A DNA stretch of 64,000 bases from Prevotella sp. (lineage in GTDB: Bacteria; Bacteroidota; Bacteroidia; Bacteroidales; Bacteroidaceae). The translations under genes and the position numbers were made by a program. The notes beneath the pieces were generated by a model. The model had not been told where the DNA came from. It saw only the letters and a list, made by a program, of their open reading frames with translations, and ran no database searches. The DNA lies in the NCBI GenBank assembly GCA_017469955.1, contig JAFUFJ010000009.1, positions 186,001 through 250,000 on the forward strand. Direction: 5' to 3'. Below, piece after piece: positions 11,883 through 46,320 of the stretch (its first letter is position 1; every line of letters begins with the position of its first letter).

Positions 11883-12358
11883 TTACTCCCCATTATTCAA
11901 CCGTTTCTTAATCACTGCGGGTACACCGGCTACCATCACATGTGCTGGAACATCTCTGTTGACTACTGCACCTGCAGCCACCACAACGCCGTCGCCTATC
12001 GTCACTCCCGGAAGGATGATGGCACCAGCACCTATCCAGCAGTTGCTGCCTATGTGTATCTCCTTATGCATAGGAGGATAAGCCGTAGCCAGGCTATTGT
12101 GTGGCGCATTAGGATTGGCTGAGGTGGTGAGCAATGCCCTGTACGCTAAGGTACTGTTCCGCCCTATCGTGATGTCCTTTGATGCAATGAACATGGTCTC
12201 TGCATTGATGTTCACATTGTCAAAGCAGATAATTTTACCCCCCCTATTTTGCGCACGCCTTTCCGCGACACGACGACGTTCTTGCCCAGCACATATCCCT
12301 TTCTCCTTAGACAGACATGCTGGATGCCTGTAAATGCCTTGAATAGTATCTTTCGCAT
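11883..12358 (-). pseudogene. Hexapeptide-repeat O-acetyltransferase, out of frame at a G tract
   Basis: ATG at 12358 lies 7 nt after the stop of the ATP-grasp gene and starts [11 protein letters not shown]. The frame reads to ..GVRKIGG and is then lost at a run of seven G (12238-12244 on the plus strand as C), ending at a TGA about 11 codons on. With eight G it would continue as [16 protein letters not shown] through left-handed beta-helix repeats ([20 protein letters not shown]) to a 158-residue protein, a normal size for short acetyltransferases. It is therefore an intact gene apart from one base in a homopolymer: probably phase-variable OFF, or a sequencing error. Its likely role is O-acetylation of the polysaccharide or a sugar precursor. 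Confidence 0.8.
12238..12244 (-). repeat. G7 tract in acetyltransferase gene (frame OFF)
   Basis: Seven G on the coding strand, followed by TAAAAT. The downstream homologous frame needs eight (or five) G. Confidence 0.8.
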
Positions 12359-12364
12359 ACGCCC

Positions 12365-13495
12365 TTACGGATTTAGTTTGTCATTCTTGATCAACTTGCC
12401 CAGGTAATACGACATCTCGCCCCAGATGGCGCGTCTGTCATCCTTCCTGTAGTCATCAAATGCATCAAAGCCCCGGAACGTCAGCGCCTGCTTCCATTCC
12501 TGCCTATTGAACTTCAGGGAAAACACACGGCCTACCAGCGTGATGACATCGCCCAGTATCCATTTCGTCTTTGTCCCCAGTACTGGGGCAATCTCTTGCC
12601 TATACGTCCCTTCTGTCGCAAGACTATACAGCACCCACGGAATGTCAAAGCCTGCAGTGACTGGGGTGGCAAGACCTCCTGTAAAGCGGGCATTCACCTC
12701 GATAAACGCTATCTTCCCACTCTCAGGGTCATACCTGAAGTCGATACCGCATACACCTTTGTAGCCCACATGGTCAAGCAGCATCTCGGCATATTTCTCC
12801 AGTTCTGGTGCAGACACTATCTCACGCTGCGTCGTCGTGCCTCCGCCGTCGGTCTTGGTCACCAAGGCATGATAGGTGGAGCAGTGGAAGAAGCCATCCC
12901 ATCTGATACAGTCCACGCTATAGTCCGTCCCGCCAATCTTCTCTTCTATGAGTGTTTTCTGGCCCTTATACTGCTGTGCCAAGTCTGCCAGTTCCTTTGC
13001 ACTATTGGGAAAGAACACCGTCTTGGCAGAGTTTCCTATCACCGTCTTGAATACACAAGGAAAGCCGCTTACTTCAGCTACCTCCCGATACACCCTTGGT
13101 GTAGGCACGCCACATTCCTGCGCTTTTTCCGTAGCCCATGCTTTGTCAGCTATGTTCACCAACATCTCTGCGTCCATATAGGGGATGATGAGATCTTTGG
13201 GGAACCGTTCCCTATGCCGCATGATGATCACCGACTCATCGTGTGTTGGCAGCAGCATCTTTGGCTTCAACTCCTGTATCTTCGCCAACAGCACCGCTAT
13301 GAACCCTTCTTCCTGGGCAAACGGGTCTGGATAGGTGAAGGCTCCTGCACAGAATTTTGATTCCGAGCAGATATTTGTTTTCGACGTGTCAGCAACCCAC
13401 ACGCTCAACCCATGTGCTGCCAGACTTCTCAAAATGTTGTAGCCCACTCTGTTCCAGCAATAGGTCACAATCACGTCACATCGTTTAGGCTGCAT
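12365..13495 (-). CDS. ATP-grasp domain protein (carboxylate-amine ligase-like)
   Basis: About 376 residues from the ATG at 13495 ([18 protein letters not shown]). An N-terminal Rossmann-like pre-ATP-grasp region is followed by an ATP-grasp fold with [18 protein letters not shown] (nucleotide lysine), [14 protein letters not shown] and the metal-binding [11 protein letters not shown]. Such proteins ligate an amine to a carboxylate through an acyl-phosphate; the substrate here is unknown. Lying between the GNAT and hexapeptide acetyltransferase genes, it may modify a sugar or aglycone. Its start overlaps the end of the longer GNAT frame. Confidence 0.75.
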
Positions 13496-14165
13496 AGGCA
13501 TAGCCCCTCCTGCAGCCCAGTTCTATTATTGGTTCTCTACCATCAATTATTATTAGGCATAAAACTACCCCCCCCAGAGACTTCCGTCTCACATCTTCTA
13601 TATACAAATAGTTGTTCGGTAGCTCTTTTATTACCTTTGTATCGAGCACTTTCTGTGTTGCATACAGTGAGGACAGGTTTTCTTTCGAAATGGTTTCATA
13701 CATATGCATCCCAAGTGCGGTGGCAACATCCATTAGGTGAAGGCACATCTGTTTTCCTATGCCTTTGCCCCAATAGTTCACGTCAACCAACTTGCCGAGG
13801 TATGCTTTCCCAATGAAATACGATCGTAGGAAATAATATCCCACCATCTTCTCATTATCCCAAACTCCGTATGCCAAATAAGACTTGTTCTTCAACAATC
13901 TTTTTATCGTTAATGCATCAAACGCGTGAGGCTTAAAATATTCAAATGATTCTTTTGGTTGACAGTTTAATAATTGTAAAAGCTCCATCGCGTTTTCATC
14001 TGTCAGCCTTTTGTAGACATACAACCCAAATTGTTCTTCTTCCAGAATGTTCTTCAACTTCCTACCATAACGTATTAGGAACAGTTCTTCGTTCACGTTC
14101 TCTATAGCTGCCCACAGCCACGGCACATGTTTCTGCATCTTGTGAGCAATACTGTACAAACTCAT
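13485..14165 (-). CDS. GNAT-family acetyltransferase with G-tract-dependent C-terminus
   Basis: A 226-residue frame. The central part (AYGVWDNEKMVGYYFLRS, VNYWGKGIGKQMCLHLMD) matches the GNAT acetyl-CoA site (G-x-G-[IK]-x). The run GGGGGGG at 13568-13574 (C on the plus strand) lies near the C-terminus. With seven G the protein ends ~25 residues further, overlapping the next gene. With eight it ends SFMPNNN with TGA at 13543, without overlap. With nine a TAG follows the tract at once. All three forms keep the GNAT core, so the tract would change only the tail. It overlaps the upstream glycosyltransferase by 4 nt. Confidence 0.7.
   Translation of the reverse strand: MSLYSIAHKMQKHVPWLWAAIENVNEELFLIRYGRKLKNILEEEQFGLYVYKRLTDENAMELLQLLNCQPKESFEYFKPHAFDALTIKRLLKNKSYLAYGVWDNEKMVGYYFLRSYFIGKAYLGKLVDVNYWGKGIGKQMCLHLMDVATALGMHMYETISKENLSSLYATQKVLDTKVIKELPNNYLYIEDVRRKSLGGVVLCLIIIDGREPIIELGCRRGYAYAA
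13568..13574 (-). repeat. G7 tract near the GNAT C-terminus
   Basis: Seven G on the coding strand followed by TAGTTTTA. The three possible frames give three different C-termini for the GNAT protein. Confidence 0.7.
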
Positions 14166-15334
14166 TGCCTCTGTTTTTCTAAAATTGTTTCGTAATATTC
14201 ATAGAGACATTTTCTCACATATCCCTGTTCAAACCTGTCTGCAATCATCTGTCTGGCATTCCCAGCCATCCTGCCCCTGTCTATGTTTGACTGAATCATC
14301 AACCTCATCGCATCATACAAGCGGTTCTCGTCTTTCGGAGGCACTATCATTCCATTCTTCCCTTCTTCTACAATCTCCCTCGAGCCATTGATGTCAGTAA
14401 CGATAGAAGGCAGCCCCATTGCTCCCGCCTCAAGCACGGTATTTGGGAATCCCTCACGATAACTAGGTATCACAAAGCAGTCGGCAGCAGCATAGTAGGC
14501 GAGTAGTTCCTCACCACATTTGCGGCCTACAGCTACTATTCCGTTCTGAGGATTCTCAATCAATGCCTTCGTCTCAGATTTTACGGGGTCAAGATTCTCT
14601 TCGTAGGCTCCTACGAGCCATAGTCTTGTTTTGGGGTATTCCTGATGGAGCCGACCAAAAGCTTGACACAATTCATTGATGCCCTTGTCACCTACGATAC
14701 GTCCAACAAACAGGAATGTAAAATAATCTTGTGCTCTTAAAGAATTCCTTGTAGCAATATCCATCACTTCCTCTCTACGTGAATAGTAAGTCATGTCTAC
14801 GCCACAAACATTGCCATACCCCAACACCTTCATCGGCTTCTTAGTAATCTTTCCTGTGACGAGGTCGTTCTTCACACCCTCACCCTCTGGTATCACATGC
14901 GTAGCACAAGCACATGTCAACCAGTCCGTAAACATCAGGATTCTGCGCTTCAATCCTGTTGCCGTGGGCCATACCAACCCCGTGAAAGTATGCACCCGTA
15001 CTGGCACATGGGCAAACCACGCTGCTACCATGCAGATCATTCCCGCCTTGGGAGTCATCGAGTGTACCATTGTCGGCTTCTCTTTGCGGAACACCCGCCA
15101 CATCTTATAGAGAGATTTACAGTCCCGAGTCAGAGAGATATGCCGTTCCATAGGCACTGCTATCACCCTCACACCCTCGCGCTCGGCCACGTCATCCAAT
15201 TCAGGACCTTTCGAAGACAGTCCTATGACTTCGTATCCTTTCTCCGACAACTCCCGCAGCATCCCTTCGCAGAAAGAGTCAAGCGACTGTGGTACGGTAG
15301 TAGCCCGAATAATCTTGACTTTATTTGTATTCAT
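14162..15334 (-). CDS. Glycosyltransferase, GT4-like
   Basis: 390 residues with a GT-B fold. The N-terminal half has KIIRATTVPQSLDSFCEGML and VHSMTPKAGMICMVAAW, resembling family-4 enzymes that add a HexNAc or deoxysugar early in repeat-unit assembly (PglA/WbpX-like, inference). The C-terminal half has FVGRIVGDKGINEL and the retaining-GT signature E-x7-E (EGFPNTVLE). It overlaps both neighbours by 4 nt. It probably acts on the undecaprenyl-linked sugar at the cytoplasmic face. Confidence 0.85.
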   Translation of the reverse strand: MNTNKVKIIRATTVPQSLDSFCEGMLRELSEKGYEVIGLSSKGPELDDVAEREGVRVIAVPMERHISLTRDCKSLYKMWRVFRKEKPTMVHSMTPKAGMICMVAAWFAHVPVRVHTFTGLVWPTATGLKRRILMFTDWLTCACATHVIPEGEGVKNDLVTGKITKKPMKVLGYGNVCGVDMTYYSRREEVMDIATRNSLRAQDYFTFLFVGRIVGDKGINELCQAFGRLHQEYPKTRLWLVGAYEENLDPVKSETKALIENPQNGIVAVGRKCGEELLAYYAAADCFVIPSYREGFPNTVLEAGAMGLPSIVTDINGSREIVEEGKNGMIVPPKDENRLYDAMRLMIQSNIDRGRMAGNARQMIADRFEQGYVRKCLYEYYETILEKQRQ

Positions 15335-16509
15335 GTCAATATAGCTTCATGGATAATATCTATCGACTGTTGGGCAGCATCACCGTATGCTGTGACATAT
15401 CGCCTTTGAAACTGTCGGGTTATACCACTTTCTGTGCTGACGTCTGTTTGTTCTATCAGCTTCAGCAAGTCTTCCTCACTTTCAGCACTCGGCAACTGCT
15501 GACGTATGTCGAAATACATTCCCCGTTTCTCTGCATACTTGTCGTAATCGTAGACATAGCAGAGCATGGGCTTACCTTGTATGGCGTAGTCGAAGAAGAT
15601 GCTGCTGTAGTCGCTAATGAGCAGGTCGCTGGCCAATATCAGGTCGTTCAAACTGGGATAGGCCGACACGTCCTTCACGAAATCGGTGTCCTCCACTCCC
15701 ATCACACGGGCCACTTCATAATGTGCTCGGAACAACAATACGTAATTCATGCCCAACCTTTCTTGCCATAATCGAAAGTTGATGGGTGGGGTCAGCACCA
15801 CATTCTTTCCACCGTCCTTATCGTACTCTCGGAAGGTGGGGGCATACAGAATAACCTTTTTCTCTGTCGATAGCACCAACTTTTGCTTTATAGCTGCTTG
15901 CCGTTCTTTTGTGGCGTGGGCCAACTCGTCATTACGAGGCAGACCTATCACACGGAAATTCTCCACAGGTGTATGGAATGCACGCGAAAAAACCTCAACA
16001 TCATATTGCCCTTGTGCCAACATAACCCCTTTAATTTTTGATTTTCCCTTGATGCCAAACGAAGTATTTCCGCTGTTGATGTCATCGCCCATACGCTTGA
16101 TTGCCGAGCCATGCCAGGTATTCAGCTGAAAGGTGTGCTTACCCGTGAAGTAAAGGCCACGCAGCATACTGCTGTTGGTCACCCACACGCGAGCTTGTAG
16201 CAAGGTCTTGTAATATGCCAGCGTGTCAATCTTCACCTTTTCGCCTTGCGGTAGTTGGTAGCCGTCCGGATGCATAAACGCCCAAACTAAGCGGCAGCCA
16301 GCAAAGCGGGCATCTTGCAGCATGGCTTCGTAGATAGCCTTGGGGCTGTCATCATACTTACGACCGCCAAAACAAGAGAATACTATCAACTTGTCGTCAG
16401 CCTTGACAAACAGCTTCAGCAGCCCGACGGCCCAACTCCCTATATAATAATATAAGGTGTAGAACGTCCTACTGTATTTTACACGGTTGATGAGTGAGAG
16501 TTTGCTCAT
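15331..16509 (-). CDS. CDP-glycerol glycerophosphotransferase family protein (TagF-like)
   Basis: 392 residues. The Glyphos_transf signatures are present: NTWHGSAIKRMG (catalytic His), LYAPTFREY, and SDYSSIFFDYAIQGKP. The family transfers an alditol phosphate (glycerol- or ribitol-phosphate) from CDP-alditol onto a glycan. It is immediately downstream of an SDR reductase and near the cytidylyltransferase-oxidoreductase fusion (18518-19864), which could supply the CDP-alditol. The polysaccharide thus probably carries a phosphodiester-linked alditol. Confidence 0.85.
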   Translation of the reverse strand: MSKLSLINRVKYSRTFYTLYYYIGSWAVGLLKLFVKADDKLIVFSCFGGRKYDDSPKAIYEAMLQDARFAGCRLVWAFMHPDGYQLPQGEKVKIDTLAYYKTLLQARVWVTNSSMLRGLYFTGKHTFQLNTWHGSAIKRMGDDINSGNTSFGIKGKSKIKGVMLAQGQYDVEVFSRAFHTPVENFRVIGLPRNDELAHATKERQAAIKQKLVLSTEKKVILYAPTFREYDKDGGKNVVLTPPINFRLWQERLGMNYVLLFRAHYEVARVMGVEDTDFVKDVSAYPSLNDLILASDLLISDYSSIFFDYAIQGKPMLCYVYDYDKYAEKRGMYFDIRQQLPSAESEEDLLKLIEQTDVSTESGITRQFQRRYVTAYGDAAQQSIDIIHEAILT

Positions 16510-17246
16510 ACGACTACACGTCCACTTTGCACTTTGTATTCATAACTATGTCGCCCTTCTGCGCGGAAATCTGCATGGTAACGCTCCAGCACCTCATGGA
16601 ACACCTCGTCGTACTGGGGGATGAAGAGGTCATCCTTGGCCTCGATGTGGGCAATAATGTCCTGTGCCAATGCCTGCGTCTGACTGAGATCGGTCTTGCC
16701 TGCATTGAAGCTGGTGCCTTTAATGCTGCCTGGGCTGACGTTGAGGATGCGATTGGCTGTGCCAGCCTTCTCTAACTCCACATTGACACTCTCAATGAAA
16801 ATTTTCAATGCTGCTTTTGTTGCCCCATAGAGGGAGAAGAACGGTGATGACATGAAACCAGCAATGCTGACCATCACGCCACAATAGAAATCGTCCTTGG
16901 CAAGCAGCCTTCCGTAGAAGTGCTTGATGACCCTGATGCCAGCAATGGTGTTCACATTGAAATAGGTCGCAATCATCTCTTCGGGAATATCCTCGAACAA
17001 GGCCAGACGGCCAAAGCCTGCTGTTATAATCAACCCATCTATGTCATCGTAACGTTCGAACAGCGAGTAGCACTCTGTGGTGAGGTCAAACTCCGTACTC
17101 TCTATTTTCTCATGATGGTACTCTTCGGCCAATGGGGCTTTGTCAACGATGTATATCTTCTCCGTTTCTGGACGTGAAGCCAATACCGTAGCCATCGACA
17201 ATCCGATGCCATTGGCACCACCAACAATCAATATTCGCTTCATCAC
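16506..17246 (-). CDS. Short-chain dehydrogenase/reductase
   Basis: 246 residues with a classical SDR fold: cofactor loop GGANGIG (9-15), ITAG (74-77), and catalytic S127, Y140 and K144 (YxxxK). It overlaps the TagF-like gene by 4 nt. From its position between the TagF-like gene and the cytidylyltransferase fusion, I infer that it reduces a keto-sugar or sugar phosphate on the way to a CDP-alditol. General SDR identity is secure; the substrate is not. Confidence 0.8.
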   Translation of the reverse strand: MMKRILIVGGANGIGLSMATVLASRPETEKIYIVDKAPLAEEYHHEKIESTEFDLTTECYSLFERYDDIDGLIITAGFGRLALFEDIPEEMIATYFNVNTIAGIRVIKHFYGRLLAKDDFYCGVMVSIAGFMSSPFFSLYGATKAALKIFIESVNVELEKAGTANRILNVSPGSIKGTSFNAGKTDLSQTQALAQDIIAHIEAKDDLFIPQYDEVFHEVLERYHADFRAEGRHSYEYKVQSGRVVV

Positions 17247-17266
17247 ATTTATTTCCTTGATTTTCT

Positions 17267-17297
17267 TTGGAGTTATAGAATTAATTCACTATCTTTG
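17267..17297 (+). promoter_or_regulatory. Bacteroidetes-type promoter for the inserted ATPase gene
   Basis: TTG at 17267-17269, 20 nt spacer, and TATCTTTG at 17290-17297 match the -33/-7 consensus. Transcription would begin near 17303, 70 nt before the ATG at 17373. Confidence 0.75.
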
Positions 17298-17372
17298 CAC
17301 TCGATTTTAAAGGAAAATCGTGTGCGACACGCAATATTTTAAAGTAAATGCAAGTGCAATTATTGATTTAGT

Positions 17373-18509
17373 ATGTTAAACAGAATCTACCAACTAAGTA
17401 ACGAGTCTGACAGCAGCATCTTTCTTTTTGGGGCTCGTCAGACGGGGAAAACCACCATCTTGCATCAGCAATTTCCCCATGCCATCTTTTTCGACCTCCT
17501 TGACACCAGCATCAAGGAAAGGCTTCGCCGTCGTCCTGTCGTACTCTATGAGACACTGAAGGACAAGCCCGAAGGCACACTGGTCATCATCGACGAGATT
17601 CCCGAGGTTCCGGAATTGCTCAACGAAGTTCACCGCCTTATCGTTGAACGTCAGCTCGTTTTCATTCTCTGTGGCTCCAGTGCACGCAAACTGAAACGAA
17701 AGGGGCACAACACCTTGGGTGGCCGTGCTCTCCCCGTTTATCTCTATCCGCTGGTGAGTGTCGAAATTCCCAATTTTGACATAGACCGCGCCGTCACCTA
17801 CGGCATGATTCCTTCACACTATTTGGCCAAACGTCCAGAACGACTGCTGGCTGGCTATATCGACATCTACCTGAAGGAGGAAATCAAGGAAGAGGCGCTC
17901 GTGCGCAACCTCGATGCCTTCCACCGCTTTCTGGAGGTGGCAGCCCTCACGGATGGTGAGATTATCAACAACAACAATATAGCCCAAGAGTGTGGCGTAC
18001 ATGCCACGACTGTCAGTTCTTACTTCGACATTCTCGAAGACACTCTCATTGGCTATCGCATACCTGCCTACACCAAGGTGATGCAACGCAGACTGGTGCA
18101 AGCCCCTCGGTTCTATTACTTCGACGTCGGCATTGCCAATTATCTTCTTCACCGCAAAGAACTTGTAAGGGGCACACCCGATTATGGCCATGCCTTCGAG
18201 CATCTGGTGGTGCAGGAACTGGTAGCCTGGCAACACTATACACACAGCGAAGAGCACCTCTCCTACTGGCGCACCTACACTGGTATTGAGGTCGATGCCA
18301 TCATCGGCGATGCCCGTGTGGCCATCGAGATCAAGTCGACTGAAGAAATACAGAACAAGCATCTAAAGAACCTTAAAATCTTTGCCGAGGAGCACCCTCA
18401 GAGTCGCCGCATCGTGGTTTCCAACGACGTGTTTACCCGGCGCATAGGCAATATTGAGTGTATATATGTCAAAGATTTCTTCCATTTGCTATGGAATGAG
18501 GGAATATGA
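17373..18509 (+). CDS. AAA-family ATPase, DUF4143 type
   Basis: 378 residues; the only complete plus-strand gene between 5 and 46 kb. Walker A GARQTGKTT (20-28) and Walker B LVIIDE (69-74) form an AAA_14-like domain. The C-terminal half fits DUF4143, with a nuclease-like strand EVDAIIGD..VAIEIKST reminiscent of PD-(D/E)xK folds. The cellular role of this family is not established. It has its own promoter and faces the SDR gene divergently and the CDP-alditol fusion convergently (8 nt apart), so it looks like a later insertion into the locus. Confidence 0.85.
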   Translation: MLNRIYQLSNESDSSIFLFGARQTGKTTILHQQFPHAIFFDLLDTSIKERLRRRPVVLYETLKDKPEGTLVIIDEIPEVPELLNEVHRLIVERQLVFILCGSSARKLKRKGHNTLGGRALPVYLYPLVSVEIPNFDIDRAVTYGMIPSHYLAKRPERLLAGYIDIYLKEEIKEEALVRNLDAFHRFLEVAALTDGEIINNNNIAQECGVHATTVSSYFDILEDTLIGYRIPAYTKVMQRRLVQAPRFYYFDVGIANYLLHRKELVRGTPDYGHAFEHLVVQELVAWQHYTHSEEHLSYWRTYTGIEVDAIIGDARVAIEIKSTEEIQNKHLKNLKIFAEEHPQSRRIVVSNDVFTRRIGNIECIYVKDFFHLLWNEGI

Positions 18510-18517
18510 CCTGACTG

Positions 18518-19864
18518 TCATATCTCCATAAAATTCTTTCGTTCACTGTACATTTGCATAATCTCGGCCATGGCGATGCTCTCGCGACGACGCAAACGGG
18601 CAGTGCTGAAGCGGTTGTTGAAGATGCAGGAGATGAACTCTTGTATCTCGTAGCGCAGGCCTGCACCGTCCCACTTGTAGAAGAACTTCTTGTTCTGGTT
18701 CTGGTCCTCGAAGCGGAACTCGTAGTAATCTGTCAGCCACCAGGGCGAGGGCACGTAGGCATAGCCCTTGGTGCCCGCAATCACCAGATTGCCCTCGGTC
18801 TTCACGCCCATGCCCAACTGGAACGAGCAGACACCATGGGGATAGCGCATCACGCCACGGGTATAGACATCAATGCCGTCCTTCATCTTCGAGTAGAAAT
18901 TGATGTTGGTATAACCGATACCCATCAACTTCAGAATAGGCAGCAGCGGGTAAGACCCCATCTCATACATCGAGCCTCCTGCCTGTACTGGGTCTAATTC
19001 TCGGGTAAACCTGTCGCCCCACAGCTTGGACTCTGATGCACTCACATCCACCACATCGCCGATAGCACCACTTTTAATCATCGTTATCATGTGGTTGAAG
19101 GCGGGTGAGTGGGCTGTCTTGTTCGCCTCCATCAGCACCACACCATTCTCCTCTGCCAGTCGGTACAGTTCCTTGGCCTGTTCGCCATTGAGCACAAGGG
19201 GCGTTTCGCAGAGCACATGCTTCTGCCGCTGCAACGCCTGCTTGGTCAACTCATAATGGGAGAGGTGTGGCGTAGCCACATATACCGCACTGACATGTTC
19301 CAACAGTTCGTCGTAGGACGGATAAACATTCACGATGCCGTGTCTATCGGCGAAGTCACAAGCCTTTGGCTGGCTGATGTCGTACACGCCAGTGGCTTTA
19401 ACGTAGCTGACAAACTCGGACTCGGGCACAAAACGCTCGGCAATGCGACCAACACCCACAATTCCTACACGAATTTCTTCTTGCAAGTCCTCACGCAACA
19501 TGGTAGAGCTGATGCCTTCCGTGCGGGGCAGATACACCACTTTGCAATATTCGTTAAGGTAGTCGAACTTGCCCTCCCAGTCGCTGCCGATGGCAAAGAA
19601 GTCAACATCATACTTCTGTATGTCATCTATCTTCTGACCTACATAGTCCTCGATGATGATCTGATCTGCCAGCCCTGTGGCCTTCACTGCCTCCACGCGC
19701 TCCAGCACATTGTTGCGCACGTTCAGTTTGCCTCGCTCACGGTCAAAGCTATCATTGGTGACACCTACGATCAAATAGTCGCCCAATTCTTTTGCCCTCC
19801 GAAGCAGGTTTATATGTCCCTGATGCAGCAGGTCATATGTTCCATATGTTATTACCTTTTTCAC
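18518..19864 (-). CDS. Cytidylyltransferase-Gfo/Idh/MocA oxidoreductase fusion
   Basis: 448 residues. Residues 1-130 are a TagD-like cytidylyltransferase with HQGH (14-17), RVEAV and the C-terminal GISST motif (117-121). Residues 131-448 form a Gfo/Idh/MocA oxidoreductase with GVGRIAERF and VYVATPHLSHYEL. The usual catalytic EKP reads ETP here (220-222), so the lysine is missing. Known CDP-alditol routes pair a nucleotidyltransferase with a reductase, sometimes fused; by analogy this enzyme may make a CDP-alditol for a TagF-like transferase, but the missing lysine leaves the second activity uncertain. Confidence 0.8.
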   Translation of the reverse strand: MKKVITYGTYDLLHQGHINLLRRAKELGDYLIVGVTNDSFDRERGKLNVRNNVLERVEAVKATGLADQIIIEDYVGQKIDDIQKYDVDFFAIGSDWEGKFDYLNEYCKVVYLPRTEGISSTMLREDLQEEIRVGIVGVGRIAERFVPESEFVSYVKATGVYDISQPKACDFADRHGIVNVYPSYDELLEHVSAVYVATPHLSHYELTKQALQRQKHVLCETPLVLNGEQAKELYRLAEENGVVLMEANKTAHSPAFNHMITMIKSGAIGDVVDVSASESKLWGDRFTRELDPVQAGGSMYEMGSYPLLPILKLMGIGYTNINFYSKMKDGIDVYTRGVMRYPHGVCSFQLGMGVKTEGNLVIAGTKGYAYVPSPWWLTDYYEFRFEDQNQNKKFFYKWDGAGLRYEIQEFISCIFNNRFSTARLRRRESIAMAEIMQMYSERKNFMEI

Positions 19865-19876
19865 GATTAACCAAAC

Positions 19877-23034: not shown

Positions 23035-23042
23035 GGGTTACT

Positions 23043-23801: not shown

Positions 23802-24654
23802 CATCTATGTCGTTGTAACTGAAGTCACTGCGCGTTTCTTTTCCATGAACGCCGTACCAAGCAGATGTATTGTCCATATTCCACACATGTATTCCTCATA
23901 CACGTATGATGTACAGGCCATGTTTCTCTTGTGTATTCGAAGGTACGAATTCGCTTGCCATAGGATAAGTGCCAGACTGTGCCTGAAAGCGCTTTTGCTT
24001 TCCTTTGTCTGAAATATGCCGTGCCGGCTATGACGCTACCCTATCAGCCGGTAGAGTTTCTCCACCTCGGCAACGTTGCCATAGTCGTGCGACCGCAGAT
24101 ATTCGGTTATTCGCGCCTGCAAATCTGTATTAAGGATAAAGTCGGCTATGCCATGTGCACACCCTTCGTTGTCCATCGGTACGATAACGCCATCTACCCC
24201 ATCCTGCACCTGGCTGCGAGCCGTGGCATAATCGGTGATCACCACGGGCTTGCACAGCATCTGGGCTTCTCGCACGGTAACCGATTTCCCTTCATATCGC
24301 GAGGGCTGCACGTAGATGTCGCATGCCTTTATATATGGATAGGGATTCGTGCGTTTGCCAAGAATAATGACATGCTGTTCCATTCCTGCCTCAGCTATCC
24401 GCCTCCGAATGAGAGCTTCGTCACCACCATAGCCGATGATATACCATTTGACGGGGAGATGGGAGCCTGAAGATGAGGATAGCAATGCGGTTATGCGCCG
24501 GCAGACATCCGGCACATTATCATAGTTTTTCGCATGAGAAAAACGACCGACTGACAACAACTTCACCATCTCTACGATGATCAACCTGAATATCTCAGGC
24601 ACACTTTCCAGGTTCTTCTGGTAGCAGAATCTCCCGATTGACAAGAGTTTTATA

Positions 24655-37736: not shown

Positions 37737-37782
37737 TATCCCAAATATCTATTTCCTTAGATCTATAGTTCCTTTTAAAGGT

Positions 37783-39171
37783 TTAGTCATCTTTATCCAT
37801 AAACTCGCGATACTCTCTGTAGCAGTCTATGCACAAACCCATTTCATTCGCATACCCGTGCGCTCCGCATCTAATGCATATGTCATCTTCCTTCGGCTCG
37901 TCAAACTCAAGGGTATCGCTAAAATCAAATTCTTTTACTATTTCTCCACCTTCGCATTCTATCTCGGAATAGTTTACAATCCTTGCAGGATATTCCCATA
38001 GACGGAAGGTTAACGTTATCTCATGTCCATTATCACATTCTATATATTCGTGATGAGTATATACCATCTCGTCCCCCATCTCCCGTTCATCGGAGTATTC
38101 TCCATCCCAATCCCAGTCGATTTCATCCTTTCTGATTACAATAATCCCATCCTTTTCATCTTCATCACTACAGCAGGCCTCGCAGTTTACAACCAATACA
38201 TCATCCCCATTTTTATAATGTTTGAGCCGTTGTTCATATTCATTCCTTATCAGCACCCTCTTCACCGCCTCCAATTTGGAGAACAAAGGCAGTTCTGAAC
38301 TATCTTTGTATCTCTGCTCCAGCTCACTAATAAAGCCTTTCAAGCTGTACATCCATATCAGTTGACCTGTCTCGTCTTGAAACTCCTTCAGCAGTTCATG
38401 CCTCGGGACATCAGTCGGCTTATTTCCGTCAAAGTGATACCAGTCGTTCTTCAAGTCGTTGCACACGAAGATTATGGGTACATTCTTGTCTTTAGCATAT
38501 GCTATAATCTCTTTCCAAATCAAGAGGTCGCCATACCGTTGCAAGCCTTTCTTCTTTTGGTTAAAGGGTGGAGCATCTTCATAGCCTGGTGGAATCAGAT
38601 TACGATAACGAAACTCTCCCTCCTTAACGATGCTCATCTGCTGTTGAAAAGAAAAGGGCGTGCCTTGCATCAAGTTGTCTACTAACTTGTTGACAATATC
38701 GTCTGCTATCTCTTGCTGTAATGAAGCTTTCCGCTTTGCGTACTGTTCTTTGATTTCTTTTCTAATCAGCTGCAATTTTTCTCTAACCACCTTATCAGCG
38801 ACTTTAATCTTATCAAGCGACGATGGTTCAAGGTATGGATGATAGGTGTCATTGTCATTATCCTTCAAGAACGCATCCATCTCTGCCTCATAGCGGTTGA
38901 CATATACGCCTTGCTTGGGTAAACCATAGGGAGCAAAAGAATTTTCAATCAGTGCCTCCCTATTCTTCTTATACTCGTAAACTACATGAGCGGGAAGCCA
39001 CAGTCGGCTTTTCACAATGCCAAAAATCTCCAAGAGCGTTTTCTTTGGTTCCTCGGCCATGCAGTAGAGGTTGCCTAAAGTGGAGGTATCGAACACGATG
39101 GTCGCCTTAGACCACAGCGCATTCTTTTCATCCTTGCTTAGTTTGTAGTATTCAATCTTGTTCATTAACAT
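37783..39171 (-). CDS. PIN-like domain protein (PIN_8/DUF4935 type) with C-terminal Cys pairs
   Basis: 462 residues. The N-terminal half fits a PIN-like nuclease: D28 in IVFDTSTLGNLY, E66 in HVVYEYKKNR, D215 in GDLLIWKEII and D239 in IIFVCNDLKNDW give the acidic set. The C-terminal region has Cys pairs at 330/333 and 432/435/447/450 (CIRCGAHG..GLCIDC), plausibly a zinc ribbon. PIN domains are metal-dependent RNases; PIN_8 proteins occur in defence and in uncharacterised contexts. It lies upstream of the HEPN-like gene. Substrate unknown. Confidence 0.7.
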   Translation of the reverse strand: MLMNKIEYYKLSKDEKNALWSKATIVFDTSTLGNLYCMAEEPKKTLLEIFGIVKSRLWLPAHVVYEYKKNREALIENSFAPYGLPKQGVYVNRYEAEMDAFLKDNDNDTYHPYLEPSSLDKIKVADKVVREKLQLIRKEIKEQYAKRKASLQQEIADDIVNKLVDNLMQGTPFSFQQQMSIVKEGEFRYRNLIPPGYEDAPPFNQKKKGLQRYGDLLIWKEIIAYAKDKNVPIIFVCNDLKNDWYHFDGNKPTDVPRHELLKEFQDETGQLIWMYSLKGFISELEQRYKDSSELPLFSKLEAVKRVLIRNEYEQRLKHYKNGDDVLVVNCEACCSDEDEKDGIIVIRKDEIDWDWDGEYSDEREMGDEMVYTHHEYIECDNGHEITLTFRLWEYPARIVNYSEIECEGGEIVKEFDFSDTLEFDEPKEDDICIRCGAHGYANEMGLCIDCYREYREFMDKDD

Positions 39172-39203
39172 TTTATTTGAGCGAGCATCTCGATATTCTA
39201 ATC

Positions 39204-40250
39204 CTATGTGCCACTTTTTATCAGCGAGGCATAATCAACGAGATTGTTCTCGGCAAGAGCAACGTCCTTACCTAATCCCCTGCGTTTAGCTTCTTCGTAG
39301 ATATAGTTAGCAAAATTGATGTCGATGTAAGAAAGTCCAACGGAATTGAAATATATAAATTCATCATCATTCTCTCGACCTACCTTTGTTCCGGCAATAA
39401 GCTCGGAGAGATTGGCGTGGATGTCTTCATCATGCAACAGGTCTTCTTTATACATGCGGCAGAGAGTCTGAGAGCGGTGCTTCACAACCTCCCATTCGTC
39501 ACATACAATCTTGTCCGCTTTCTGGGCAACACCATATTCATCTTCCCAACCACCGACATGAATGTAAAGACCACCCTTGGTGATGTCAGTAGCTTTGAGA
39601 ACAGGGCTTTGGGCGCTGATGGCAGTAACGATGATGTCCGCTCCGCTTGCACAGAGATGGGAGTTGTTGTCGCAAGTGACAAACTTAACATCAGGAACGA
39701 TGTCTTTAAACTTATCAATAAAGCCTTGCTCAATCTCAGTATTGAGAGAACACACTCTGCACTCTTTTATGGAGGGGAACAAGTGCTTCAAAAGAGTAAA
39801 GTGCATACGAGCCTCTTCTCCGGCACCAATAATCCCGATTTTCTCAACTTTAGAAGGTGCCAGATACTTAGCCGCAGTACATCCGACAGCTGCAGTGCGC
39901 ATCTTCGTAGAAAGGGTTCCATCAATCACAGCTACAGGGAAACCTGTCTCCAACTCGGAGATGAGCATGATTCCCGTTACATTCTGGACTCCTTTGGGAG
40001 CATTTGAAGGGAACACCGACACCCACTTCATGCCGTAAATCTTCTCATTAATAAGAGATGCGGGCATACAATTGATGCGATTCTGGGTCGCTTCATCAAA
40101 TATCTGGGAGATCTTGTCCGGCATGATAATGTCGCCATCAAGATACTTGCGAAAGGAATCTTCAATGATTCCACAAATAGCATCTGCATTGCCTTTGAAC
40201 ATCTCAGCAACTTCTTCCTGGCTGATGATCTTAATAGAAATATTGCTCAT
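39204..40250 (-). CDS. Ornithine cyclodeaminase/mu-crystallin family enzyme
   Basis: 348 residues. The N-terminal half (MPDKISQIFD..YGMKWVSVFPSN..GIMLISELETGFPVAV) carries the family's substrate-binding positions. The Rossmann part has IGIIGAGEEARMHF and ADIIVTAISAQSPVL. Members include ornithine cyclodeaminase, SbnB and alanine dehydrogenase-like enzymes using NAD. With three ATP-grasp ligases and an aminotransferase beside it, I infer that it makes or releases an unusual amino acid that is then coupled to a sugar or another amino acid. Confidence 0.8.
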   Translation of the reverse strand: MSNISIKIISQEEVAEMFKGNADAICGIIEDSFRKYLDGDIIMPDKISQIFDEATQNRINCMPASLINEKIYGMKWVSVFPSNAPKGVQNVTGIMLISELETGFPVAVIDGTLSTKMRTAAVGCTAAKYLAPSKVEKIGIIGAGEEARMHFTLLKHLFPSIKECRVCSLNTEIEQGFIDKFKDIVPDVKFVTCDNNSHLCASGADIIVTAISAQSPVLKATDITKGGLYIHVGGWEDEYGVAQKADKIVCDEWEVVKHRSQTLCRMYKEDLLHDEDIHANLSELIAGTKVGRENDDEFIYFNSVGLSYIDINFANYIYEEAKRRGLGKDVALAENNLVDYASLIKSGT

Positions 40251-40274
40251 AATATCTTGTGTTTTACTTTATTC

Positions 40275-41546
40275 TTAATTACCATACTTTTCATCATTCA
40301 GTTCATCTACCTCAAATAGTGTGAACAATAAATTATTACCTGCCACATCCTCTACCTTTAGCTGCTCTAGCACCTCATGAATGGAGTACTGTAGTGCTTG
40401 CAAGTCATCATAGAGGATATGCAAGTAGCAGAACACCTGCTGTGCGGAGCCCCATTCCTGAATATCATCACCGGCAAAATGGACAGGGACAAAGGCATAA
40501 ACATCATCCCTTTGCAGTACATCGTCGATTCCAATCACCTTATCAATCCTCCCAGCATGTATGTGAACGGGAAGTATGCAGTATTTCTTGCCTGGTTTAA
40601 TATCTTTCGGCATAACCGGAAATGACTCACCAAGAGCTACATGAATCAACTGATCGAGTTGGTCAATACCATAAAAATACTGAACAGGATAGTTGGTCAT
40701 TGAGCCTCCAAAGCGATATCCCATTTCATTAAAAATAAACTTATCTGTGCCGTCGTAAAAAGCTTCTATCCAGATAGGCCCATCAGTGAATCCAGCTGAT
40801 TCAAACATGTTCCGAACCTTGGCGTCAAGGAGTTCCAAATACTTTTGTATTCCACGGGAGGGGAAAAGTTGAAGTCCCATCACTGATGCACCAGTCGACG
40901 GGAATTTGACAGAATACTTATCTGAAATACCAGAAAAAAGACATTTACCATTAACCATTGTGTAATGAACAATCACGGCATCGTAGGGAATGTAATCTTC
41001 AACAAGTACACTGCCTGTGGGAGAAAACTCTTTAGCATGGTTATACCCGTTACGGAGCTGCTCAGCATCGTGGCACACGGAAAAGCCACGACTGCCACTA
41101 CCGTCCACTGGCTTGGTTATCACAGGGAAATCAACTCCCTGGAGAGAATCATCGGACAAATCATTCAAGTCATACTTTTTGGCGACTGGAACGTCATTGG
41201 CCATGCATAATGACTTGAACGACACCTTGCTGTCGCAATAGAGCCACGTAGAACGTTTGCAATAGCAAGGTAGATGTAACCGTTCACAAAGGTCGAGCAT
41301 ACGATTGATGTTGAACTCATGAACACCCGTAGTGATGCCATCAACATGGTTGGTGATGCAAAGCCGCTCCAATTTATCTATGTCGGCAGTACTGACATCC
41401 CATGATTCGTCGGCGAAGAGTTTTGCCTGTGATAATTCTTTAGGCAAGTAGTCGGCAACAATCACATAATGTCCCAAATCCTTGGCACGACGGACTATTT
41501 CCACCGAGCCAATAGGCTTGCCTCCCAAAACCAGTAATTTCTGCAT
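40275..41546 (-). CDS. ATP-grasp ligase (tandem set, third)
   Basis: 423 residues. A pre-ATP-grasp Rossmann domain (KLLVLGGKPIGSVEIVRRAK) is followed by the ATP-grasp domain with VITKPVDGSGSRGFSV (nucleotide loop) and FIFNEMGYRFGGS (metal and ATP residues). About 100 extra residues follow. The same N-terminal plan is found in the next two upstream genes, so these are paralogs. Substrate unknown; such enzymes make peptide or amide bonds from free carboxylates. It lies 24 nt before the cyclodeaminase-like gene. Confidence 0.8.
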   Translation of the reverse strand: MQKLLVLGGKPIGSVEIVRRAKDLGHYVIVADYLPKELSQAKLFADESWDVSTADIDKLERLCITNHVDGITTGVHEFNINRMLDLCERLHLPCYCKRSTWLYCDSKVSFKSLCMANDVPVAKKYDLNDLSDDSLQGVDFPVITKPVDGSGSRGFSVCHDAEQLRNGYNHAKEFSPTGSVLVEDYIPYDAVIVHYTMVNGKCLFSGISDKYSVKFPSTGASVMGLQLFPSRGIQKYLELLDAKVRNMFESAGFTDGPIWIEAFYDGTDKFIFNEMGYRFGGSMTNYPVQYFYGIDQLDQLIHVALGESFPVMPKDIKPGKKYCILPVHIHAGRIDKVIGIDDVLQRDDVYAFVPVHFAGDDIQEWGSAQQVFCYLHILYDDLQALQYSIHEVLEQLKVEDVAGNNLLFTLFEVDELNDEKYGN

Positions 41547-41568
41547 ATATTCTTTTTGTTTATCTATT

Positions 41569-42834
41569 TTACGAATATTTGTCTAACAACTGAGCAGGCA
41601 TGAATGAGTCAATCAGCATCTCCTCCCCTGACCTGCTGCGAACAGAAACCGCTTGCTGGAACTTACTGATGGCCGCTATAATATCCTTGATACTGCTGCC
41701 GAGCAAATCAACTTCAGCAAAACGTTGGCTGACCGTGGCCGTCCACTGCACCTCTTCACCCTCAACATAGCGTGAGAACAAGGCCTTTACCCTCTCATCC
41801 TGCCGATACTTCTCAAGTCCGCTTATCTTATCTATGACACTATTTTTCAGTACCGGAAACAGAATGGCCGCTTTATGCCCGTTGAGCAAATAGGCATTTT
41901 CTGGGAAAATACCTTCGGAAGGGAAATGTCCCGTCAAGGCATACTCCACCATCCACTCACAGATGTCGAATCCGAATGTTTCATTCAGCATCCGCTCATA
42001 TTCCACCCCAGGGAAACGAAGACCCGGGTCGAAGAAGAAGAACTGGCCATCGCGCACAAAGCCCTGCATGAAGACAGGACCATTGGTGATTCCGGCCTCT
42101 GCAATCATCTTCTCTACCTGAGAGTGAGCATTCCGAAGATACTCTTCGGTATGACGTGAGGGCGATATAGAACAGTTGACAAGTTTCTGCAAGCCCAATG
42201 ACTCGCTGCCCCTGTAGCTGTCGCAGGTGCGCTCCAAATGGGGTTCTCCATTGACCACGAAGTATGTCACCTGAAATTCATCGCAATCGCCCAAGTATTG
42301 TTCAATGAGTATCTCTCCATTGGATGACTCGGACTTTGCAAATGCCATAGCCTCATCGAGAGAGCAATAGTCGTAGCAGACCGACTGTCCACGTGAGCCT
42401 CGACTATCCACTGGTTTCACGAACACGGGGAAGCTTATTTTCTGCTCACGGACATCATCTTCCGTATAGTCAGGTATCACGTCCACTCCATTCTCCCTAC
42501 AAAGCTTCTTGAAGGCATTTTTGTTGGTGAAGCGGTAGAACTGCCCGGGGGTACCAAGACAAGGTTTGTTCAGTCTTGTGCAAAGCTCGGAATAGGGTAT
42601 CTGACAGGGGTCGATGAAACCGGCAATCACACCGTCAACAAGGTTTTCGTTGCAGTACGCTTCCAGACCATCAACATCCCTGACATTGACGTCCCATGCC
42701 TCATCGCAGATGGCTTTGCATGGTGAGTTGGCAAGATAATCTGTGACTATGGTGTAATGTCCCATTCGCTTTGCTGCTTCTACGAGTTTCAGATGCTGGG
42801 CTGCTCCACCCAGTATTAATATTTTCTTTTTCAT
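41569..42834 (-). CDS. ATP-grasp ligase (tandem set, second)
   Basis: About 421 residues from ATG 42834 (MKKKILILGGAAQHLKLVE), whose ATGA overlaps the stop of the upstream paralog. The ATP-grasp domain has FPVFVKPVDSRGSRGQSV, ILIEQYLGDCDEFQVTYFV and FFFDPGLRFPG. The metal-binding ENxR position reads DPGLR, so activity could be altered. Same overall plan as its neighbours. Role in amide-bond formation inferred from the family. Confidence 0.78.
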   Translation of the reverse strand: MKKKILILGGAAQHLKLVEAAKRMGHYTIVTDYLANSPCKAICDEAWDVNVRDVDGLEAYCNENLVDGVIAGFIDPCQIPYSELCTRLNKPCLGTPGQFYRFTNKNAFKKLCRENGVDVIPDYTEDDVREQKISFPVFVKPVDSRGSRGQSVCYDYCSLDEAMAFAKSESSNGEILIEQYLGDCDEFQVTYFVVNGEPHLERTCDSYRGSESLGLQKLVNCSISPSRHTEEYLRNAHSQVEKMIAEAGITNGPVFMQGFVRDGQFFFFDPGLRFPGVEYERMLNETFGFDICEWMVEYALTGHFPSEGIFPENAYLLNGHKAAILFPVLKNSVIDKISGLEKYRQDERVKALFSRYVEGEEVQWTATVSQRFAEVDLLGSSIKDIIAAISKFQQAVSVRSRSGEEMLIDSFMPAQLLDKYS

Positions 42835-44153
42835 GCTGCAGCCCTCCATTCTTTGGCGGTGCGCAGCACACTTGTTTCTACTCTATCAGTTAATGTCTCG
42901 TCATTTTGTCTGTAACCAATGATTATCAGCCAAGTTTTACCCCCCCCTAAAATTCTGACATCCACATACTTACGGACATCAGTAAGAACTTTCTCCATTT
43001 CTCTTTCTTCTTCAAAACGAAGCACTAGTGTTCCGATGGCATTGTTGGCCCCCTCAAAGGAGTCCACATGATCGCCAGCCTTGACCCAGAGGTCTTCTTC
43101 CACGACTTCGGCTTTCAGGTCTTTGCTGAGTTCCAGGCTGTCGAAAACACCAGCTTTATCGGCATGAAGAATAATCTCTGCCCAATGGCAGTTATAAGGT
43201 TTCTGCTCGATAGGTTCAAGGATAGGGTCGCCCACCATAGCACGGGTAATGGCAGTAATCATATCCACACCCGTAGCATAGCGCAACATCTCGCACAAAC
43301 GGTTTCCACCACCACGTGGGGTCAATTCCATGATGTATGGTTTCCCATTGGGAGCTACTCGAACTTCAATGTTATAGACCACTGTCTTCAGATTAAGCAG
43401 CGTTATTAGACGCTGTATCTCAGATGTCAGATACGCTTCCTGTTCCTTGGTGAATGTGGAAGGCCAACTATACGCTGCCGGAGTATATGGGTTGGTGGCA
43501 TTGAGGTCGAATCGCTGAGCACAGAAACTGGTGAACACAAGTTTTCCATCCACCGACATGCTGTCAGTATCAGAAGAGCAGCCCTGCTTGTCAATAAACT
43601 CCTCAACGAGGATATGGCCAGAGATAGAATGTTCCATCGCATACTCCAAAGCCGGTTTCAAGTTCTCTTTTCTGTCAACACGGGTCACGCCTTTACTTCC
43701 AGCCGCATCCGTGGGCTTTACAATCACAGGCCAAGGACACCAATCGGAATCCTCCATTGCAGCCTCAATACTGTCAAAGCCCTTTGCCTGAGGCACATTA
43801 AAACCATTCTTGGCGAGAAAAGCACGGAACTTATCTTTGTTCTGCAAGATCTCCACACTCTCAAATGGGCCAAAGCTGGGCAATCCCATCTTGTTCTGCA
43901 CATAGCTTGCAGCAACCACACCGGGGTCACAAGCAAATGACATGATACCATCGATCTGGAGCCGCTGTGCTTCTTTCAAAACGGCCTCCTTGTCAATGAT
44001 ACTGACGTTGCAATACTCATCGCTCCAAGTATGAGCGATGTTGTTGGGCAGGTAGTCTGCCGTTATCACATAGTATCCCTGTTTGTGGGCTGCATCAATC
44101 ACCGGTTTAAGGTATCGCAAGCCGCCAAGGAGCATCAGTTTCTTTTGCTTCAT
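42831..44153 (-). CDS. ATP-grasp ligase (tandem set, first) with C-terminal G tract
   Basis: 440 residues: KLMLLGGLRYLKPVIDAA, then VIVKPTDAAGSKGVTRV, ILVEEFIDKQG and IMELTPRGGGN, a complete ATP-grasp set. Near the C-terminus eight G (42940-42947) encode LGGGKTW. In this frame the gene ends exactly in an ATGA overlap with the next ligase, which argues that eight G is the working length. Seven G would give a stop four codons later and probably uncouple the next gene. It may therefore be phase-variable. Confidence 0.8.
   Translation of the reverse strand: MKQKKLMLLGGLRYLKPVIDAAHKQGYYVITADYLPNNIAHTWSDEYCNVSIIDKEAVLKEAQRLQIDGIMSFACDPGVVAASYVQNKMGLPSFGPFESVEILQNKDKFRAFLAKNGFNVPQAKGFDSIEAAMEDSDWCPWPVIVKPTDAAGSKGVTRVDRKENLKPALEYAMEHSISGHILVEEFIDKQGCSSDTDSMSVDGKLVFTSFCAQRFDLNATNPYTPAAYSWPSTFTKEQEAYLTSEIQRLITLLNLKTVVYNIEVRVAPNGKPYIMELTPRGGGNRLCEMLRYATGVDMITAITRAMVGDPILEPIEQKPYNCHWAEIILHADKAGVFDSLELSKDLKAEVVEEDLWVKAGDHVDSFEGANNAIGTLVLRFEEEREMEKVLTDVRKYVDVRILGGGKTWLIIIGYRQNDETLTDRVETSVLRTAKEWRAAA
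42940..42947 (-). repeat. G8 tract at the C-terminus of an ATP-grasp ligase (frame ON)
   Basis: Eight G on the coding strand followed by TAAAACTTGG. Seven would stop soon after the tract (..LGGVKLG, then TGA). Confidence 0.75.
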
Positions 44154-44155
44154 TC

Positions 44156-45265
44156 TTATTTTACCACTAATTCAAGTACTCTGTTTATATCTTCCTCACT
44201 CAGCTCATGGTGCATCGGCAGGCAGATAACTTCGTTGGCTATCTTTGTCGCCACAGGCAGGTTCTCAGGTGCTGCACTCGGAAGGCCACGATAGGTGCTG
44301 AAGGTACTGATGAGGGGATAGAAATAGCGACGGCCGAGGACGTTCTTCTCCTTCATTTCAAAGTAGAGCTGGTCGCGCGTCTTGCCATATTCCTCCGCAT
44401 TGATGAAGATGGGGAAGTACGAGTAGTTATGACGAACACCTGGCATATCGTCAAAGAAACGGATGCCAGGAACGTTTCTAAGAGCCTCACGATACCGCTG
44501 TGCCACTTTCTGACGGGCAGCAATGGCGGAATCCACCTGCTTGAGGTTGAGAAGTCCGTAGGCAGCACGCACCTCATCGACCTTGCTGTTGATGCCTGGG
44601 GCCACCACCTCAGTCTCTCCAGCAAATCCGAAGTTCTTCAGGTAGTCTATGCGCTTCTTTGTGACTTCATCGTGCATCACGAGCGCACCGCCCTCTAAAG
44701 TGTTGTACACCTTGGTGGCATGGAAACTCAGCGTGCTCATGTCGCCAGCATTCAGCACGCTCTCGCCATCCACCTCCACGCCAAAGGCATGGGCGGCATC
44801 GTAGATGACCTTCAGGCCGTACTTGTCAGCAATCTCCTGAATAGCCTTCATATTCACCGGCTTGCCATAGCAATGCACAGGCATGATGGCCGTGGTCTTG
44901 GGCGTGATGGCCGCCTCAATCTTGTTGGGGTCTATGCCGCAAGTGCTTTCCTCAATATCCACGAACACAGGTTTGCAGCCGTTCCACCAGATGCTGTGCG
45001 TGGTGGCCACAAAACTATAAGGCGTAGTAATAACTTCGCCTGTTATTCTTAAAGCCTGCAAAGCCGTGAGCAACGGCAGTGTGCCGTTAGTAAACAGGCT
45101 GATGTACGGCACTTTCAGGTACTCTGCCAAAGCCGTCTCCAACTGCTTATGAAACGAGCCGTTGTTGGTAACCCACTTGCTGTCCCAAATCTCTTGAAGC
45201 ATCTTGTGGAATTCTTCCAAATCAGGCAAGAGGGGAGATGTGACTGTAATTATGTCTTTATTCAT
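44156..45265 (-). CDS. DegT/DnrJ/EryC1-family aminotransferase
   Basis: About 369 residues from ATG 45265 (MNKDIITVTSPLLPDLEEF), 1 nt after the acyltransferase stop codon; a longer frame extends to 45355 but has no support. The PLP lysine is in SFHATKVYNTLEGGAL, with TTPYSFVATTHSIWWNGC and VIYDAAHAFGV also present. It aminates a keto-sugar, giving an amine that a downstream ATP-grasp ligase could acylate. This is a second DegT enzyme, distinct from the one at 8159-9511. Intact. Confidence 0.87.
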   Translation of the reverse strand: MNKDIITVTSPLLPDLEEFHKMLQEIWDSKWVTNNGSFHKQLETALAEYLKVPYISLFTNGTLPLLTALQALRITGEVITTPYSFVATTHSIWWNGCKPVFVDIEESTCGIDPNKIEAAITPKTTAIMPVHCYGKPVNMKAIQEIADKYGLKVIYDAAHAFGVEVDGESVLNAGDMSTLSFHATKVYNTLEGGALVMHDEVTKKRIDYLKNFGFAGETEVVAPGINSKVDEVRAAYGLLNLKQVDSAIAARQKVAQRYREALRNVPGIRFFDDMPGVRHNYSYFPIFINAEEYGKTRDQLYFEMKEKNVLGRRYFYPLISTFSTYRGLPSAAPENLPVATKIANEVICLPMHHELSEEDINRVLELVVK

Positions 45266-45266
45266 A

Positions 45267-46320
45267 TCAAAAATGGAGTCTTCTTGAACTTTGAAATGTC
45301 CTGTCATACCATTGAAAGAACCATTTTTCAACCGTATGTATACGAATTTGATCAATTGTCACACAGACAAGGAATATCATTATCACTGCACCCACTGCAT
45401 AAAGGGGATAAAAGGCCGTATCATAATGTCCCACACAATCTACGACATCCCGCCAAATCCAACGTCTCATCCTGTCACTATTTGCATGAATCAGCAAAAC
45501 TCCAAATGTTGATGATGCAATTATATTAATCCAACGCGAATAAGGCATACGGATTCTTCTGAAGTAATTAAATAAAACCGTCGATACAAAAACAGCCAAT
45601 ATCTTATTTGAATCTGAGACAAAGAAATAGTAGTTATGCCTATGAAACAACAATAGCACCACGACACTTCCTATTGCAACCAGCAAAGCCAGAATTACCC
45701 CCCCCTAAATTACTTATTTGACTCAACCATTTTGGTTCATAAAGACGGATGTAGGAACCTAACAAATAGAGCACAGAAAACCAAGATACATAGTTCATTT
45801 TGACTTCTATCAACCCTGTTGATCCCATGAGCGTATATATTGAGAGTGTCAAGAGGAGTAAATTTCTGTGTAGCATTTCCCCCATCCCCCGTATGAGAAC
45901 ATTGAGAAACGGTATCAACAAGAAAAACAGTAAGTAGCATGAGGTAAAACCATCAGACACAGACCAAATGGGGCATATCATGTGTTTTATCAATTTCAAG
46001 GACAAAGTCGAATACCCAAAGAGCAGGAAAACGCAGTCGATGACAAAGTTATAGAACATCACTTCCAAAAGCAGCTTAAGAAACTTTCTAAGTGTAATTT
46101 CGGACTTGCACATGAAATATCCTGTAATCAGCACAAAACAGTTAATGCCCGTCTTGCCCCACATCCCGAAAATATAGTAAAACCATGAAGCTTTTGTAAG
46201 AGGATGCTCATCCATGTACTGAGTCAAGCCAGAATTTACCACATAGTGATGGGCGACTATCATCAGCATTACGAGAATGCGATACAATTCAATGTTGCTA
46301 TTACGTGCCTTTCGTTCCAT
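45267..46320 (-). pseudogene. Acyltransferase-3 family membrane protein, OFF at a G8 tract
   Basis: The first gene of the locus. From ATG 46320 (MERKARNSNIELYRILVML) it has the family features: an early HHYVVNSGL, FYYIFGMWGKTGINCFVLITG, and many membrane helices. The frame is lost at eight G (45698-45705): as read it becomes polar and ends after ~27 residues. With seven G the sequence continues as another hydrophobic helix (VILALLVAIGSVVVLLLF) and on to TGA at 45267, 1 nt before the aminotransferase ATG, for ~350 residues. Strong candidate for phase-variable O-acylation. Confidence 0.82.
45698..45705 (-). repeat. G8 tract in first acyltransferase gene (frame OFF)
   Basis: Eight G on the coding strand followed by TAATTCTGG. 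Seven restores a membrane-helix reading frame. Confidence 0.8.

Follow-up and report, generated by a model that had tools for sequence, protein, structure and literature searches.

Why does one polysaccharide locus carry so many long guanine (G) tracts, and do these tracts switch its genes on and off? The question arises from a 64,000-nucleotide stretch of Prevotella sp. DNA (contig JAFUFJ010000009.1, positions 186,001 to 250,000; G000:C15:186001-250000 in our numbering of genomes and contigs), called the window below. It belongs to a genome of 2.26 Mb in 22 contigs that is 75.6% complete. According to Pfam, the locus encodes a sugar transferase, glycosyltransferases of families 2 and 4, an EpsG-type protein, a flippase and glycerophosphotransferases, together with DegT aminotransferases, ATP-grasp enzymes and acyltransferases. 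The function in a surface structure that is expected of a contingency locus is therefore indicated by the Pfam content. We consider that the G tracts are probably simple-sequence contingency loci, switched by slippage, in genes that decorate the glycan. The sequences suggest a reversible, chance-driven ON/OFF switching of coat decorations.

Long G tracts are concentrated in the polysaccharide locus

All nine tracts reported in a preliminary description of this DNA are present at the positions named there. Eight of them consist of G on the coding strand; the ninth, at 29404, is a G6 on the plus strand and thus a C6 in its gene, which is on the minus strand. On the plus strand the eight appear as C runs of 7, 8, 7 and 8 nucleotides (nt) at 12238, 13568, 21462 and 24655 and of 7, 9, 8 and 8 nt at 25303, 33303, 42940 and 45698. 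Five C runs of at least 8 nt were seen in the window, against 0.54 expected under a first-order Markov model, and no excess of A or T runs was found in it. Tracts of at least seven G (G7+) number 21 genome-wide. Eight of these fall inside a 33,468-bp stretch, at about 41-fold the density of the rest of the genome (Poisson P about 4e-11, with the caveat that the stretch was picked once the tracts had been seen), and all eight are on the coding strand. The locus thus shows, beyond chance expectation, repeat tracts of the kind sought in the coding region or promoter of a contingency locus. Clusters of G8-G12 tracts were also found in glycan genes elsewhere in the genus.

Two genes are divided at a G tract

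It had been proposed that four genes lose their frame exactly at a tract. This is clean for an acetyltransferase (12238) and a membrane acyltransferase (45698) and doubtful for a glycosyltransferase (24655); a second acyltransferase (29404) had to be dropped.

In the hexapeptide acetyltransferase the first 38 residues are encoded in a different frame from the LbH domain, and both halves are otherwise open from start to stop. A search of 398 genus genomes (E <= 1e-30) revealed the family in five places, with all five copies out of register. Three orthologues share the tract codon, with G7 in the window, G9 in genome G006 and G7 in genome G390, and all three are out of frame; in the two sister proteins, one from G103 and the other a further G006 copy, G9 and G8 lie slightly closer to the N-terminus. 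Among the three orthologues the ratio of nonsynonymous to synonymous differences per site (pN/pS) is 0.30-0.38 upstream of the tract and 0.14-0.19 downstream, with synonymous sites near saturation.

The Pfam match of the membrane acyltransferase stops at profile position 209 and resumes at position 225 in another frame, and again both halves are otherwise open from start to stop. Homologues were sought in 200 genomes, with matches in 46; 30 loci were fetched, of which 29 could be aligned. The homologue in G028 carries a G9 at about the same codon and is likewise out of frame, its Pfam halves covering 3-203 and 211-324. Of the best 15 places found in this search, 13 hold frames that stay open for 355-405 codons; the two short frames, those of the window (231 codons) and G028 (243 codons), both terminate at the mid-gene G tract. 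Two of the 13 open homologues have an in-frame N-terminal tract (G11 in G079, G8 in G163), each preceded by an ATG, and runs of at least 8 occur in four of the 29 aligned loci. The comparison of the window with G028 gives a pN/pS of 0.37 before the tract and of 0.46 after it.

Comparison of tract lengths in related genomes, proposed earlier as a check, thus gave 7/9/7 for the acetyltransferase and 8/9 for the acyltransferase at corresponding codons. At 12238 and 45698, as in their relatives, whether the gene stays in frame depends on the length of the tract, and this length differs at the same place between species, as expected of contingency loci.

The remaining two genes are different. At 24655 the part downstream of the tract opens with a diverged duplicate of about 29 codons, which repeats the beginning of the GT-B C-domain and is placed directly after the G8 (24560-24655), and for this reason the tract was not counted among the clean switches. 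The acyltransferase gene at 29404 was excluded because its tract is C6 in the gene and a second lesion, a stop, is present; from its sequence it reads as decayed.

Tracts in intact genes and at gene ends

Five tracts are found without a gene break. Three of them (21462, 25303 and 33303) are read as glycine codons in frame. The longest, in a flavoprotein, makes up three GGG codons, a codon that accounts for 13% of the glycine codons in long open reading frames (ORFs). The same motif has G runs of 2-4 in 20 homologous sequences, matched by a motif search among 71 fetched loci, against G9 in the window.

The other two tracts, 13568 and 42940, lie at the 3' ends of their genes (Table 1), and in other registers a stop codon is met soon after each. 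Homologues of the ATP-grasp ligase terminate at the position of the G8, and the window frame is about 37 residues longer; it runs 19 bases into the next ORF, an overlap that shrinks to ATGA if translation of that ORF begins at its second ATG. The GNAT ORF overlaps the start of the following ATP-grasp gene by 17 bases, and the G8 at the end of the window gene corresponds to a G10 at the end of the GNAT gene of G006. Such gene-end tracts may tune translational coupling with the next gene.

Table 1. Positions in the window of the polysaccharide locus, its tracts and the genes that carry them.
Feature	Coordinates	Strand	Basis or remark
Polysaccharide locus	5065..46320	-	Pfam; nearly all genes on minus strand
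Hexapeptide (LbH) acetyltransferase split by the 12238 tract	11883..12358	-	Pfam Hexapep on downstream half; orthologues in G006, G390
G7 tract in hexapeptide acetyltransferase gene	12238..12244	-	Halves in different frames
ATP-grasp gene, start overlapping end of GNAT ORF	12365..13501	-	76% identical to G006
GNAT acetyltransferase ORF with the 13568 tract and short terminal extension	13485..14165	-	
G8 tract near 3' end of GNAT gene	13568..13575	-	Frame read continues into next start
G7 in family-2 glycosyltransferase (21016-21918)	21462..21468	-	In frame
Family-4 glycosyltransferase with tracts 24655 and 25303	24036..25351	-	ORF list, Pfam
G8 in family-4 glycosyltransferase	24655..24662	-	Frame change; adjoining diverged partial duplication
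G7 in N-terminal Gly-Gly of family-4 glycosyltransferase 24036..25351	25303..25309	-	In frame
Broken Acyl_transf_3 gene, two lesions	29156..30246	-	Frame analysis, Pfam
G6 on plus strand (C6 in gene), frame change in acyltransferase	29404..29409	+	Gene also with in-frame stop
NAD_binding_8 / amine-oxidoreductase-like flavoprotein ORF	32055..33395	-	Pfam
G9 in dinucleotide-binding motif of flavoprotein	33303..33311	-	In frame; homologue comparison
ATP-grasp ligase ORF with the 42940 tract and terminal extension	42831..44153	-	
G8 tract at end point of homologous ATP-grasp proteins	42940..42947	-	Homologue alignment
Membrane acyltransferase split by the 45698 tract	45267..46320	-	Pfam, homologues
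G8 tract mid-gene in Acyl_transf_3 gene	45698..45705	-	Halves in different frames

Tracts in related genomes and elsewhere in the same genome

In total, 114 distinct G7+ tracts from the window, other stretches of its own genome and genus loci were analyzed by scoring the homology of the two halves of each gene. Of these, 21 could be scored (93 could not), nine being in frame and 12 out; several pairs among the 21 score each other, and the set includes a tandem repeat (L115) and a weak paralogue match (L134). The 44.7-kb contig G006:C107 (L132, L142, L133) has four kinds of gene in common with the window, for the sugar transferase, the acetyltransferase, the ATP-grasp protein and the GNAT protein. 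It contains ten C7+ runs and no G7+ run, and five of the ten runs put gene halves in different frames (8172, 19201, 28701, 34015 and 37551, the last judged by Pfam halves).

As an in-genome control we used the 13 G7+ tracts outside the locus. Five are shown to be in frame: those of genes for MreB, SusD, a TonB receptor and an M3 peptidase, where a Pfam domain spans the tract, and L079, by homology. Another five lie in long frames but are undecided, and three lie in no long frame. A Fisher comparison of locus and remaining genome (3/8 vs 0/10) was withdrawn; it had used frame length alone, a test that capsule tracts pass too.

How the tracts may have arisen and what they may do

Under the reading preferred here, replication slippage would alter tract length, and the change would reversibly shift individual enzymes that decorate the surface polysaccharide into or out of frame. 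In the assembled state the acetyltransferase and the membrane acyltransferase would be OFF and the flavoprotein, with its G9, ON, with the glycosyltransferase doubtful. At 13568 and 42940 a change of length would move the translation stop relative to the next start and so possibly adjust coupling. The polymer would then be under a combinatorial ON/OFF switch. It is from sequence comparison that we infer the reversibility of the switching, its rate, its effect on the glycan and the role in coupling.

Several results weigh against slippage switching. The tract-length differences are known between species only. All five acetyltransferase copies are off frame; were one register of three ON, this would have a chance of 0.13. 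The control outside the locus is weak, with five of 13 tracts in frame and the rest undecided or frameless, and by this comparison the locus has no significant excess of off-frame tracts. The dinucleotide TA, which directly follows many of the tracts (see below), adjoins Acyl_transf_3 genes at two of 27 TA-flanked sites and at one of 48 other sites in the fuller of two comparison sets. Finally, the tracts are short (7-9), and mismatch repair genes are generally present: mutS1 scored above cut-off in 11 of 12 genomes and mutL in all 12, G000 having both. Loss of mismatch repair as the cause is thus unsupported, and switching may be slow given the short tracts and the presence of mutS1 and mutL.

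The off-frame state of the whole acetyltransferase family also fits transcriptional slippage or recoding. RNA polymerase or the ribosome would slip on the G run, so that some enzyme of full length would still come from an off-frame gene and selection would tolerate or favour the off-frame length. Conservation of both halves in the three orthologues agrees with this, and homopolymers that are off frame and undecayed are known in insect endosymbionts (PMC3017870); those cases, however, are A/T runs, the lengths differ among our orthologues and other families have in-frame members, so we regard recoding as unlikely. We give similarly little credence to homopolymer errors of sequencing or assembly in genes that are truly in frame. 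The lengths do come from one incomplete assembly, and the in-genome control is weak, with just five of 13 tracts elsewhere shown in frame. Nevertheless, none of those five settled tracts is off frame, off-frame tracts recur at the same codons in other genomes, and an error of one base cannot make the excess of long tracts.

Ordinary decay, in which decorating enzymes are being lost and indels strike homopolymers first, is consistent with the two lesions at 29404 and with the rearrangement at 24655. It does not readily account for the gene halves at 12238 and 45698, otherwise open throughout, or for an acetyltransferase constrained downstream at least as strongly as upstream; in the acyltransferase the constraint is slightly weaker downstream (0.46 vs 0.37). 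Nor would decay be expected to leave long G runs at one and the same codon in several species, and we think it improbable. The suggestion of phase variation therefore stands in part. Switchable tracts are favoured over random homopolymers or sequencing error at 12238 and 45698, because the tract recurs at the same codon in other species with different lengths and conserved halves, but the suggestion does not extend to all four genes. A wider reading, which is speculative and to our mind doubtful, is that commensal Bacteroidales share a slow, repair-proficient contingency network throughout the lineage, built of intragenic enzyme switches and of gene-end coupling switches that each set the level of the next gene.

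Comparison with known systems

Switching by slippage would most likely be a known mechanism in a group where no such multi-gene system was found reported. Capsule switching in Bacteroidales is described in PMC12632263 through DNA inversion. Those invertible promoters of Bacteroides resemble our case in concerning a Bacteroidales surface polysaccharide with stochastic expression, but there a promoter inversion governs a whole locus, whereas here single genes are proposed to be controlled by tract length. The capsule and lipooligosaccharide (LOS) genes of Campylobacter jejuni (PMC13317227) are alike in that several genes for one surface glycan, modifying enzymes included, contain repeat tracts and give ON/OFF combinations; they differ in that switching is established there, while the present genome has mutS and mutL, two of its tracts lie at gene ends and the host belongs to Bacteroidales. 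In B. fragilis PSI/9 (PMC3090145) an acetyltransferase of a capsule locus carries a homopolymer frameshift for which the authors proposed slippage, although this concerns one strain, a C4 run and one gene. Transcriptional slippage in Blochmannia (PMC3017870) likewise involves off-frame homopolymers in otherwise intact genes, but the tracts are poly-A/T and the host is an insect endosymbiont.

A literature search, from which subscription journals were mostly absent, found phase variation of several genes by homopolymers reported neither for Prevotella nor for its relatives. In another phylum, the pneumococcal capsule acetyltransferase gene wciG is reportedly changed by frameshift (PMC11934437). 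Ornithobacterium hominis is another member of the Bacteroidota. A putative phase-variation mechanism, not specified, is mentioned for it in PMC13183296, and a passage on Bacteroidetes or Prevotella was looked for in PMC2831843 and none was found. A question that PMC11868660 treats as open concerns multi-locus phase variation and pathogens. If true, a system of G tracts spread over several genes in a group of gut or rumen type would be relevant to the inversion-based view of capsule switching in Bacteroidales, and existing metagenome reads offer a direct test of it.

Sequences flanking the tracts

A TA directly follows (3') seven of the 11 G6+ runs in the window. Among the listed genus G9+ sites whose flanks were read, 27 of 75 have this flank, as compared with 162 of 2201 G3-G4 runs. 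The TA-flanked motif is also commoner than its reversed control: the counts are 209 vs 66 for 150 genomes of the genus and 172 vs 69 for 295 genomes of the order. At order level, 21 sites in 20 stretches chosen from motif-rich genomes were inspected; 15 had no adjoining sense frame of at least 50 codons, and five lay opposite an antisense frame of at least 100. The TA-flanked motif is not specific to coding tracts. The sequence [CT]TGAT occurs 2-16 nt past 13 of 106 TA-flanked G7+ tracts, as against 1-5 in windows beginning at least 10 nt downstream, and it may merely provide out-of-frame stops. An earlier link between the TA flank and Acyl_transf_3 (16/63 vs 0/43 fragments) was withdrawn, the loci having been chosen by cluster and the comparison set being incomplete.

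A site-specific recombination site, suggested by the Gn-TA flank and an inverted pair (24642-24664 / 29398-29420), was set aside because homologues align across the tracts with nearly constant spacing. Upstream of the locus, where an invertible promoter would have its flanking repeats, the inverted repeats between 45500 and 48500 are weak, for example 18 nt at 78%, 122 nt apart (46821-46978), and a 21-nt inverted pair at 48039-48140 lies inside another ORF. That ORF is anthranilate-synthase-like, and imperfect direct and inverted repeats are found within it at the same positions.

Additional observations

In several genera of the order, AT-rich and often non-coding sequences carry G8-G13 tracts followed by TAAA (L306-L325, L138:4105, L139:5626), and for these coding switches are no explanation. 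Outside the genus, G10-TAAA stands directly ahead of an open Acyl_transf_3 frame in L311 (G536:C25:142270-144680).

Two genes inside the polysaccharide locus should also be mentioned, an AAA_14/DUF4143 gene on the opposite strand (17373-18509, plus) and a gene for a PIN_8-domain protein (37783-39171, minus). Elsewhere in the genome, a protein with a signal-like N-terminus and Fn3_assoc/CHB_HEX domains shows an apparent frame change near an (AG)4 repeat (L076:1500-1580; G000:C4:98800-98880). This repeat lies about 60 bases ahead of an in-frame G8-TAAAA tract and may be a second switch outside the locus.

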